From an uncultured Algibacter sp. (GTDB lineage: Bacteria > Bacteroidota > Bacteroidia > Flavobacteriales > Flavobacteriaceae), in the NCBI GenBank assembly GCA_947502405.1, contig CANMZT010000006.1, forward strand, positions 62,001 to 126,000: a stretch of DNA of 64,000 nucleotides, in the 5' to 3' direction. A program made the translations under genes and the position numbers. Shown piece by piece: positions 18,340-20,729 of this stretch (positions within the stretch are counted from its first letter, which is position 1; each line of letters starts with the position of its first letter). The notes beneath the pieces were generated by a model. It had not been told where the DNA came from and did not search any database. It was given only the letters and a program-made list of their open reading frames with translations.

Positions 18340-18600
18340 GTCGCAGTGCTCAGTTGCAGTTTGCAGTGGTTAGCGTTTTTAAAATTTAACGTTTTCGTTT
18401 TCTTTGATATTTAGTTTTTGGGCGTTACCCTATCGGGTCGGGCTTTCCGCTATATCTTTTTAAAACGTCATTGCGAGGAGTGAGAGACGTGACAATCTGT
18501 TAAAACCTAGTTCTAAATTCAATTAATTATTTCCAAAGTTTTAAAAAGGATGTCGCTGCTCCCGATAGCTATCCGGACTAACGCGGGTGTATGCTAAATT
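18340..18600 (+). repeat. Nest of several interspersed repeat families
   Basis: This gene-free stretch holds four different repeat blocks: a GCAGT-rich low-complexity tract (18343-18373), the GGGCGTTACC family copy B (18415-18460: GGGCGTTACC, GGGTCGGGCTTTCC), a CGTCATTGCGAGGAGTGAGA block (18466-18501), and CCCGATAGCTATCC followed by ACGCGGGTGTATGCT (18561-18595), which corresponds to the distal end of the GGGCGTTACC family. It looks like one ancestral repeat split or overlaid by others. A REP-like hairpin starts 20 bp beyond. Confidence 0.7.
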
Positions 18601-18621
18601 CAGTTCTTATGTAGTATTTTT

Positions 18622-18645
18622 GTCATTCCTGCGAAGGCAGGAATC
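18622..18645 (+). repeat. REP-like hairpin R1
   Basis: GTC, then stem ATTCCTGC, loop GAAG, stem GCAGGAAT, then C. Left boundary of unit 1; the same sequence recurs at 19108. Confidence 0.8.
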
Positions 18646-18667
18646 TATTTTTAAAAAACAAGTATAA

Positions 18668-18979
18668 ATGTATAAAAACATACACCAATACTACTTATAC
18701 ATACTATCCAACAAAAAGAACGGAACCTTATACATTGGTGTTACAAACGACTTAGAACGCAGAATGTTCGAACATAAAAACAAACTCGTTGAAGGTTTTA
18801 CCAAAAAATACGGACTTGATAAACTCATCTATTTTGAAACTTACCAATATGTAAACGATGCCATAAAGCGTGAAAAAAACATGAAGAAATGGAAACGCCA
18901 ATGGAAAATTAATTTAATTGAAGAAGATAATGCAAACTGGGAAGATTTATCAAAGGATTGGACGTATTTAATTGATTGA
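18668..18979 (+). CDS. Small GIY-YIG nuclease, copy 1
   Basis: This 103-residue protein consists of one GIY-YIG domain of the YhbQ/UPF0213-like type. YYLYILSNKKNGTLYIGVT (residues 8-26) holds both tyrosines, DLERRMFEHKN the conserved Arg, and DAIKREKNMKKWKRQWK the metal-binding Glu and a basic helix. It should be a small endonuclease with no separate DNA-targeting domain. The gene lies between inverted REP-like hairpins 22 bp upstream and 9 bp downstream. It differs from copy 2 at about nine bases and three residues (Gly/Glu, Lys/Ser, Lys/Glu), so the duplication is recent. Small GIY-YIG genes bounded by such hairpins occur in many Bacteroidetes and Proteobacteria; their role in spreading the hairpins is an inference. 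Confidence 0.85.
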   Translation: MYKNIHQYYLYILSNKKNGTLYIGVTNDLERRMFEHKNKLVEGFTKKYGLDKLIYFETYQYVNDAIKREKNMKKWKRQWKINLIEEDNANWEDLSKDWTYLID

Positions 18980-18988
18980 TTTTATTAT

Positions 18989-19013
18989 GGATTCCTGCCT
19001 GCGCAGGAATGAC
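18989..19013 (-). repeat. REP-like hairpin R2
   Basis: GG, stem ATTCCTGC, loop CTGC, stem GCAGGAAT, GAC. Inverted relative to R1; right boundary of unit 1. Confidence 0.8.
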
Positions 19014-19107
19014 AAACAAACGTAATTTAGCTTTTAAGTAAAATAATAAAATAAATTTTAATTTGCTTTTCACTTAAAAAACAAAACAATAACTAATAAA
19101 GACTGCT

Positions 19108-19131
19108 GTCATTCCTGCGAAGGCAGGAATC
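19108..19131 (+). repeat. REP-like hairpin R3
   Basis: Identical to R1: stem ATTCCTGC, loop GAAG, stem GCAGGAAT. Left boundary of unit 2. Confidence 0.8.
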
Positions 19132-19153
19132 TATTTTTCAAAAACAATTATAA

Positions 19154-19465
19154 ATGTATAAAAACATACACCAATACTACTTATACATACTATCCAACAA
19201 AAAGAACGAAACCTTATACATTGGTGTTACAAACGACCTAGAACGCAGAATGTTCGAACATAAAAACAAACTCGTTGAAGGTTTTACCTCAAAATACGGA
19301 CTTGATAAACTCATCTATTTTGAAACTTACCAATATGTAAACGATGCCATAAAGCGTGAAAAAAATATGAAAAAATGGAAACGCCAATGGAAAATCAATT
19401 TAATTGAAGAAGATAATGCAAACTGGGAAGATTTATCAGAGGATTGGACGTATTTAATCGATTGA
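19154..19465 (+). CDS. Small GIY-YIG nuclease, copy 2
   Basis: A 103-residue sister of the protein at 18668, with all visible GIY-YIG elements kept (YLYIL, TLYIGVT, LERRMFEHK, DAIKREKN). Of about nine base differences from copy 1, most are synonymous or change surface residues, so both copies appear to be under coding constraint and intact. The gene ends 9 bp before hairpin R4. The start ATG is the same as in copy 1, and the 22-bp leader between hairpin and ATG is nearly identical. It is followed on the opposite strand by a DUF2971 gene. Confidence 0.85.
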   Translation: MYKNIHQYYLYILSNKKNETLYIGVTNDLERRMFEHKNKLVEGFTSKYGLDKLIYFETYQYVNDAIKREKNMKKWKRQWKINLIEEDNANWEDLSEDWTYLID

Positions 19466-19474
19466 TTTTATTCT

Positions 19475-19499
19475 GGATTCCTGCCTGCGCAGGAATGAC
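19475..19499 (-). repeat. REP-like hairpin R4
   Basis: Same sequence as R2 (stem ATTCCTGC, loop CTGC, stem GCAGGAAT). Right boundary of unit 2. Confidence 0.8.
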
Positions 19500-19531
19500 A
19501 AAAAACAAACAATAATATTGTCTGTTTTAGG

Positions 19532-20317
19532 TTAATTATACTTTGAAAGTATTGAATTTTTAACTTCAATATTTAAACCATATTTATAACATAAATCTTG
19601 AATAATATCTAAATACCACTTTGGAGAATAAGGACTAATAATAATTTTATCAATTAAAATATCTAAGTTAACATCTATATATTTCCCTCCACTAATTTCT
19701 TCTTTTGTCCAATCATAAACTAAACCTGCTCCAAAATCAACAGTATGTATTAATCTTACTTCATCCTCAAAGTTATAGGCAGAATGTTTATGTATTACTG
19801 GGTACATGATATTTCCATATGGCATCAAGTCTTTTTCATAATTAATATAGTTTATCTCACTTAGATTAATTTTCTCATTAGTCTTTTTAAATGAATCTAC
19901 CATCTTACTAACCGAAGAGGTTATCATTATTCCCTTATGAAAATCTGAATAAATTTTCCATAAAGCTGCTGATTCAGAATCTCCTTTATTCCAACAACTA
20001 ACACAATTCAAAGCCTTTAATTTTTTCTCAGCTTTTATATCTTCATCAATATCTAAAATTACTTCATCAGGTGTCATTTGTTTGAATTTGTGACTTAAGG
20101 GAAGTCTGTGTTTAGATAATTCAAGTCTTTTTTCATGAGTTGCTTTTGAAGTTGTACCTTCAAAATGGTCTTCAAGCTTATCGAGCCTACAAAAAAAGAG
20201 TGCCTTTTTATGAATTAAGGATATAAACTTAGTCAAGTCTAAATATTTAACAATCTTATAATTACTATCAGGATAAATAACAGGTGCAGTATGTCTTGAA
20301 GGCTTAATTATTGGCAT
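19532..20317 (-). CDS. DUF2971 domain-containing protein
   Basis: This 261-residue cytosolic protein belongs to the DUF2971 family. The family core CWNKGDSESAALWKIYSDFH near residues 108-127, followed by KGIMITSSV and later ALINEDEVRLI-like HSAYNFEDEVRLIHTVDFG near 178, is typical. FFCRLDKLEDHFEGTTS near 43-59 is the conserved N-terminal block. The biochemical function is unknown; members often occur in variable genome regions and some lie near defence genes. Here it lies between hairpins R4 and R5, beside the GIY-YIG units, and may be a passenger gene. Its base composition is not clearly different from its neighbours by eye. Confidence 0.75.
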   Translation of the reverse strand: MPIIKPSRHTAPVIYPDSNYKIVKYLDLTKFISLIHKKALFFCRLDKLEDHFEGTTSKATHEKRLELSKHRLPLSHKFKQMTPDEVILDIDEDIKAEKKLKALNCVSCWNKGDSESAALWKIYSDFHKGIMITSSVSKMVDSFKKTNEKINLSEINYINYEKDLMPYGNIMYPVIHKHSAYNFEDEVRLIHTVDFGAGLVYDWTKEEISGGKYIDVNLDILIDKIIISPYSPKWYLDIIQDLCYKYGLNIEVKNSILSKYN

Positions 20318-20404
20318 AAAAATGAATTATATACCTACTAAATTAATGTTTTTTGCTCCTAAACTTCAAACAAACTTATAAACACTTGTAAACAAATAAA
20401 ATAT

Positions 20405-20429
20405 GGATTCCTGCCTGCGCAGGAATGAC
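20405..20429 (-). repeat. REP-like hairpin R5
   Basis: Same sequence and orientation as R2 and R4. Together with R6 it forms a divergent pair 93 bp apart without a gene between. Nothing was recognised from 20430 to 20522 or from 20548 to 20729. Confidence 0.8.
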
Positions 20430-20522
20430 AAATAGGAGCAATTTGACTTTTGAGGTAATAAAAAGCAATAGTTTTTAATACACTTTTCAATAATGCTTGT
20501 TATAATGATTATTAGGCGTTCT

Positions 20523-20547
20523 GTCATTCCTGCGCAGGCAGGAATCC
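20523..20547 (+). repeat. REP-like hairpin R6
   Basis: GTC, stem ATTCCTGC, loop GCAG, stem GCAGGAAT, CC: same orientation as R1 and R3, with a loop resembling that of the opposite type. Confidence 0.8.
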
Positions 20548-20729
20548 ACCAAGAGAAAATCACGTACAAAAAAAACCTTAAACAGAGGTTCTTTCTACAA
20601 TATTCAAAAACTAATTAATTAATCCTTTATCCAGCATTTACAATGCGGTTCTACTCATACTTCCCAAAAGCCTTTCTATCATAAATCCAAGACATGGTTA
20701 TGAAAATTTCACCTAATATAAATTAGGCT

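Follow-up and report, generated by a model that had tools for sequence, protein, structure and literature searches.

Two direct copies of a small GIY-YIG nuclease gene, each boxed by an inverted pair of hairpins, stand in the window (the whole 64,000-nucleotide stretch analysed here). We read each unit as an autonomous member of a REP/REPIN-like system in which the GIY-YIG gene lies between cognate CGTC hairpins that its enzyme would cut and spread, a reading to which we give a probability of roughly 0.55.

The units are 392 bp each (18622-19013 and 19108-19499), differ at 12 bases and share one layout: a 24-nt hairpin (GTCATTCCTGC-NNNN-GCAGGAATC), then a GIY-YIG gene of 103 codons, then the hairpin again in inverted orientation, with the GTC tags pointing outward. 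Unit 1 runs from its left hairpin (18622-18645, plus strand, GTCATTCCTGC-GAAG-GCAGGAATC) through gene copy 1 (18668-18979, plus strand, 103 aa, PF01541 E 2.3e-16) to a right hairpin (18990-19013, minus strand); unit 2 has the same elements at 19108-19131 (plus strand), 19154-19465 (plus strand, 103 aa, PF01541 E 2.8e-16) and 19476-19499 (minus strand). Between the two genes, 9 of 312 bases are changed, which alters 3 of 103 residues (G19E, K46S, K96E). A preliminary description of this DNA had given two direct 392-bp hairpin/gene/inverted-hairpin units whose genes differ at about nine bases and three residues, and both statements stand, the 12 differences being counted over the whole unit. Terminal inverted repeats are present, with arms of 42 nt (83% complementary) in unit 1 and of 25 nt (96%) in unit 2. 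Segmental tandem duplication was rejected, since the flanks of the units are not duplicated: over the 60 bp beyond them, 42 of 60 positions differ on the left and 35 of 60 on the right.

Allowing up to 3 mismatches, the hairpin pattern (TCATTCCTGCGNNGGCAGGAATC) matches the window at six places and 100 shuffles at none, which rules out chance as its origin. A third hairpin pair, with tags inward, lies at 20406-20546 and is formed by hairpins at 20406-20429 (minus strand) and 20523-20546 (plus strand) around a 93-bp spacer (20430-20522, plus strand); the region 20369-20577 aligns at 77-78% in two sister species, G044 and G155. The 94-bp spacer between the units (19014-19107, plus strand) is outside the duplicated block, as had been described, yet it and the 93-bp spacer inside the third pair are related, with a score of 18 that none of 300 shuffles attains (mean 0, sd 3.9).

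No known RNA family matches at gathering score within 18400-20700, where the best matches are Flavo-1 (RF01705) upstream and low-scoring miRNA-type matches over the hairpins. The Flavo-1 match (18432-18574, minus strand, 38 bits against a gathering score of 42) coincides with a dispersed repeat that has many copies in the genus and contains a CGTCATTGCGAGG...CAATCTG repeat; Flavo-1 may therefore overlap a CGTC-type repeat. A variable gene also adjoins the hairpins at the window locus (19532-20317, with a sub-cutoff DUF2971 match), and the same locus holds a different 378-aa ORF in G155 (L193:1676-2812) and a 443-aa ORF in G044 (L192:3370-4701). Accessory genes may be exchanged here at a small site delimited by the hairpins.

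The window hairpins and the CGTC REP superfamily

CGTC-tagged REPs were described in 2013 from five phyla, with Gramella forsetii (Bacteroidetes) among the hosts, as repeats that have a CGTC/TGTC tag, an 8-9 bp stem starting with AT, a loop of 4-5 bp and a CCA-like tail, and among which inverted (HH) dimers with short spacers predominate and other dimers are rare (Di Nocera 2013, PMC3733652, in the available part of its text). By structure, the window hairpins are CGTC REPs. They take the form TGTC-ATTCCTGC-NNNN-GCAGGAAT-C, with an 8-bp stem that begins with AT, a 4-bp loop and, at most aligned sites, a CCA or CTA tail, and their hosts are likewise Bacteroidetes.

Their dimers and their dispersal agree with this class as well. 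Searched for across the genome that carries the window, as the preliminary description had proposed, the hairpin recurs at 60 sites on 20 contigs at up to 3 mismatches (reversed-pattern control, 0). Thirty of these sites were retrieved with their loci. At 11 of them, an inverted partner with its tag outward lies 20-31 bp past the tail, which amounts to 9 distinct doublets. A tag-in partner is present at five (four belong to the two tag-in pairs of the window and one is a chance match), a same-direction partner within 160 bp at none, and the remaining sites have no partner within 160 bp.

The difference from the superfamily is the gene. A GIY-YIG gene lies inside the dimer here, whereas the available text of PMC3733652 gives the repeats no enzyme: it states that they 'apparently lack a dedicated transposase', that no CGTC repeats occur around RAYTs and that associations with other transposases are few and fortuitous. 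The term 'GIY' has 0 occurrences in that text and is absent from the available text of PMC12306157. Our literature searches, which reached few subscription papers, found no text linking GIY-YIG to CGTC REPs.

Genes and their cognate hairpins

Six small GIY-YIG genes are found in the genome that carries the window, along with a weak match within a 408-residue frame. Clear inverted hairpins surround four of the six, and their types differ: TTCCTGC for the window pair, TTCCGCACTTGATGCGGAA for the C8 gene and TTTCCGCGAAG-CGGAAA for the C20:25878 gene. The other two, on C18 (score 23) and at C20:40604 (score 21), have a weak inverted pair or none, and the latter adjoins same-direction repeats. At up to 3 mismatches, 6 sites of the C8-type hairpin are found in this genome, including the two that flank the C8 gene itself. 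Mixed doublets also occur, in which a TTCCTGC hairpin is paired with one of the types found around the C8 and C20 genes.

The same association was examined at related loci picked by protein similarity alone (the best 80 of at least 558 in named genomes, plus 29 from the family), of which 3 of 109 were left out of the flank counts for short flanks, leaving 106; some redundancy is present in this set (L090/L146 and L076/L143 have identical hairpins, and L053 equals G155 over the unit). By a strict detector (GTC followed immediately by an arm of at least 8), 39 of 106 GIY-YIG genes are flanked on both sides by tag-out hairpins, whereas 1 of 270 other ORFs in these loci is (Fisher 3e-23). At least one flank carries such a hairpin in 63 of 106 versus 21 of 270; no strict tag-out hairpin stands at 43 of the 106. 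When all 64 trinucleotides are tried as the tag, GTC comes up in 102 of 212 flanks and the runner-up in 11. The lineage-specific hairpins mostly share the frame [CT]GTCA-stem-loop-stem'-TC[CT], and the hosts, by record title, include Bacteroidota, Bradyrhizobium, Chloroflexi, Saccharibacteria and Syntrophomonas. A homologue in N. gonorrhoeae, 49% identical, stands among CGTCATTCCCGC (CGTC-type) hairpins, the nearest of which have their tags facing the gene, the reverse of the window orientation.

The hairpins on the two sides of a gene also belong together. An inverted-pair score of at least 30 is reached by 74 of 106 own left/right pairs versus 66 of 520 mismatched pairs, a control that is high because relatives share hairpins; the other ORFs of the same loci and the pairing within genomes were therefore used as controls. 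Within genomes (63 genes from 20 genomes, chosen for several listed copies and with only some copies retrieved), the own right hairpin is the best match of the left one in 46 of 62 cases, with 19.1 expected. Nuclease genes bounded by their own hairpin variant, as the preliminary description had anticipated, are thus the case for many, and the hairpins, dispersed though they are, are not scattered without a link to GIY-YIG genes. Among 88 same-genome gene pairs, the window pair is the only one with at least 85% identity, so the gene itself seems rarely copied, as is said of RAYTs. At one locus (L250, G087:C1:1186300-1194500) four divergent GIY-YIG genes lie in about 6 kb, and recognisable own hairpins accompany two or three of them.

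UPF0213-like GIY-YIG genes of Bacteroidota served as a negative control (L334-L363, 30 loci, one dropped for a short flank). Strict two-sided hairpins were found at 0 of 29 and a hairpin on any side at 4 of 29. Other inverted repeats (score at least 30) surround 16 of 29 of these genes versus 23 of 812 mismatched pairs, so the link with repeats is wider than the subfamily of the window. Several of these repeats have the form TGTCA..GAGC..AGTCGA.

Of the 149 genomes of the family, 14 have a best listed enzyme with at least 60% identity to that of the window, and 13 of these carry the exact window hairpin, versus 29 of the 135 others (Fisher 1.7e-7, with the 60% cut chosen after inspection of the matches). 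Many hairpins are also found where no enzyme reaches 60%: G006 has 17 and a broken gene, G088 17, G110 and G113 15 each, G131 13 and G096 10.

Presence and absence between species

Homology between the genome of the window (G000) and G044 stops at the outer tag of unit 1; the block does not run on beyond the hairpins in relatives, an extension that the preliminary description had named as a point against its reading. In G155, unit 1 and the same spacer are followed by a lone hairpin at the place of unit 2 (its left hairpin, 19108-19131). The gene upstream of the units is by appearance what we take to be a DEAD-box helicase, and the short interval from this gene to the next conserved one holds no such hairpin in G149 and G151. 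The two copies differ from each other at 12 bases, from G044 at 25 each and from G155 at 31 and 34. They are closer to each other than to either relative, so copy 2 either originated after these species separated or was homogenised since then, at a place where G155 has no more than a hairpin.

Empty sites in relatives, which had been suggested as a check, are found at species level. G000 and G044 share a doublet at C13:25826; G150 and G155 lack it, and there the genes on its two sides overlap. A mixed doublet (C4:208664-208739) is present in G000, G044 and G155 and absent in G149, G150, G151, G153, G154 and G156, G152 lying outside the alignment. At the L035 doublet, extra bases stand on both sides.

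Bradyrhizobium, for which 195 genomes were searched, offers a similar picture for whole units. Compared with the GIY-YIG unit of L092 as reference, the 29 loci examined (L217-L245) comprise 19 empty sites, 4 full ones (one with a different right flank), 1 partial and 5 without a simple junction. The right end of this unit is sharp; on the left, 55 extra bases stand beside the orthologous units and are absent beside the unit at another site, L245. At the junctions of the Bradyrhizobium units and the sister-species doublets, whose flanks have diverged, inspection by eye revealed no target-site duplication.

A second Bradyrhizobium interval is bounded by genes that we take to be lepB-like and groEL. 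Of the 20 genomes retrieved for it, 19 show the groEL end, and the states are varied: no CGTC hairpin in 3, a solo palindrome tagged at both ends in 4, a nested palindrome in 1, a left hairpin followed by a GTAG-type repeat in 4, full units in one orientation in 4 (two of them in broken frame) and in the other orientation in 2, and an internally deleted gene in 1. The two orientations differ in protein (82-84% versus 68-72% identity to the L092 protein). Several side observations belong here. A second palindrome (GGTGCGCAATTGCGCACC) is nested within the CGTC hairpins of L237, L240, L300 and L307, and GTAG-type repeats follow truncated hairpins at several Bradyrhizobium sites. At L096 and L220, a GIY-YIG unit joins an L092-type left flank to an apparent groEL end, as would result if two units had recombined and the intervening genes been lost.

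The enzyme and the spread of the hairpins

Pfam finds GIY-YIG and a weak T5orf172 in the unit proteins and no other domains. Neither a HuH tyrosine transposase nor a DDE or other known transposase was found in the unit with Pfam and NCBIfam, the latter giving one sub-cutoff group I intron endonuclease match. In 107 sequences (106 loci and the window protein), the residues that we take to be catalytic in GIY-YIG enzymes are kept nearly throughout: Y11 in 106, Y22 in 106, R32 in 104, E69 in 107 and N88 in 107. Stop codons fall inside the matched stretch in 10 of 106 related loci. A structure model of copy 2, built from 32 sequences (mean pLDDT 92.5), has a single PDB match at E <0.001, the UPF0213 protein 1zg2 (E 3.3e-4), followed by Slx1 structure-specific nucleases. 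The GIY-YIG fold is known from UPF0213, Slx1, UvrC and I-TevI-type homing endonucleases. The window enzyme shares this catalytic fold and differs from the I-TevI type in being a free-standing 103-aa protein between hairpins, without a long DNA-binding part. With a classical insertion sequence the unit has terminal inverted repeats in common, but not a DDE or other known transposase. A role as a defence gene was rejected (PADLOC yields one weak homing-endonuclease match, E 0.003), as was phage or plasmid cargo: by tblastn, the window protein matches 34 of 72,556 plasmid records, some of them chromosome-sized, and none of 50,697 phage records.

The REP-like, RAYT-like layout noted in the preliminary description holds, with own hairpin pairs around a nuclease gene and with doublets. 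According to the available text of PMC3116915 and PMC8266576, the REPtron or REPIN-RAYT system likewise has a nuclease gene flanked by its own REPs, and the doublets and cognate pairing seen here would correspond to its non-autonomous doublets and cognate recognition, but its RAYT is a HuH tyrosine transposase, whereas the window unit has GIY-YIG and a weak T5orf172. Because no HuH enzyme is present in the unit, the system is not a REPIN/RAYT member. We rate it as a GIY-YIG 'REPtron', with this enzyme in place of the RAYT, and hence as a variant of the REP-with-enzyme kind.

A small GIY-YIG enzyme may also recognise a repeat without moving it. The Ssn family, said to have been described by Chenal, Veyrier and colleagues in Nature Communications in 2025, reportedly consists of site-specific GIY-YIG nucleases, with thousands of homologues, that cut cognate repeats as ssDNA; in Neisseria, the repeated cognate sequence of such a small enzyme is said to modulate transformation. 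That study reportedly concerns ssDNA cleavage and transformation, not hairpin-boxed mobile units or the CGTC REP superfamily. The likeness would be a small GIY-YIG enzyme with catalytic residues and a repeated cognate sequence. By analogy, the window enzyme would cut its repeat in incoming or single-stranded DNA and tune transformation or genome exchange, the hairpins having spread otherwise and the gene being kept for the host. We consider this unlikely, although the near absence of the gene from phage and plasmid records and the variable gene beside the hairpins in three species would both suit it. Paralogues with their own hairpin pairs, full units at one site in both orientations and unit 2 as a comparatively recent copy are difficult to account for unless hairpin and gene have at times moved together.

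Another mover is conceivable, namely RAYT/IS200-type or other transposases that carry the hairpins along, the GIY-YIG genes being passengers caught between two of them. The REP/REPIN-like architecture recalls this, and GTAG-type REPs are linked to RAYTs in the available text of PMC8266576 and PMC3116915. It is nevertheless quite improbable in view of the transposase associations reported for CGTC repeats, none around RAYTs and few and fortuitous with others, in the available part of PMC3733652; nor would passengers belong to a single protein family that recurs across several phyla, with hairpin variants of its own. Harder still to credit is a role of the hairpins solely in termination or mRNA stabilisation, with ordinary segmental duplication behind the tandem copies: hairpins do adjoin gene ends, some beside a terminator-like stem, but the GTC tag, the tag-out inversion, the plain and mixed doublets, the empty sites and the lack of duplicated flanks around the 392-bp unit all speak against it.

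Returning to autonomous units with a cognate enzyme, hairpins that stand without a gene, single or as tag-out doublets with 20-31 bp between, would be the non-autonomous copies. The nuclease likely recognises its hairpin and is plausibly the engine of hairpin spread; we infer that it cuts the hairpin and that this cleavage powers the spread. Most probably, the enzyme would bind and cut its own hairpin when this is extruded or single-stranded, during replication or uptake, and repair or strand transfer would then insert a copy of the doublet, or of the entire unit, elsewhere. New copies would land preferentially where a hairpin already stands, so that the element would combine the behaviour of a REPIN with that of a homing endonuclease. 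The scarcity of the gene in phage and plasmid records, together with the rarity of close paralogues, fits a RAYT-like, largely vertical enzyme that serves its repeats in trans. Several findings weigh against this reading: the extra bases beside inserted hairpins and the lack of a recognised target-site duplication, the genomes rich in hairpins but with no enzyme at 60%, the 43 of 106 loci and the two genes of the window's own genome with weak or missing hairpin pairs, the repeats around UPF0213-like genes and the reversed tags in N. gonorrhoeae.

More tentatively, and at somewhat below even odds, we propose that GIY-YIG enzymes are the missing mobilisers of the CGTC REP superfamily as a whole, forming minimal elements in many phyla that would spread by hairpin cleavage and copying into hairpin sites. 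This offers a concrete enzyme candidate for repeats that the available text of PMC3733652 left without one in 2013, and a rule by which the target of each enzyme would be predictable from its own flanks. The lepB-like/groEL interval of Bradyrhizobium and the genus of the window are natural sites for following gain and loss. If the proposal is true, the mobilising mechanism would be neither that of a DDE or HuH enzyme nor that of a serine or tyrosine recombinase, with a hairpin-cutting GIY-YIG enzyme as the sole protein, and a second, unrelated nuclease fold would stand beside RAYTs as the partner of REP-like DNA.
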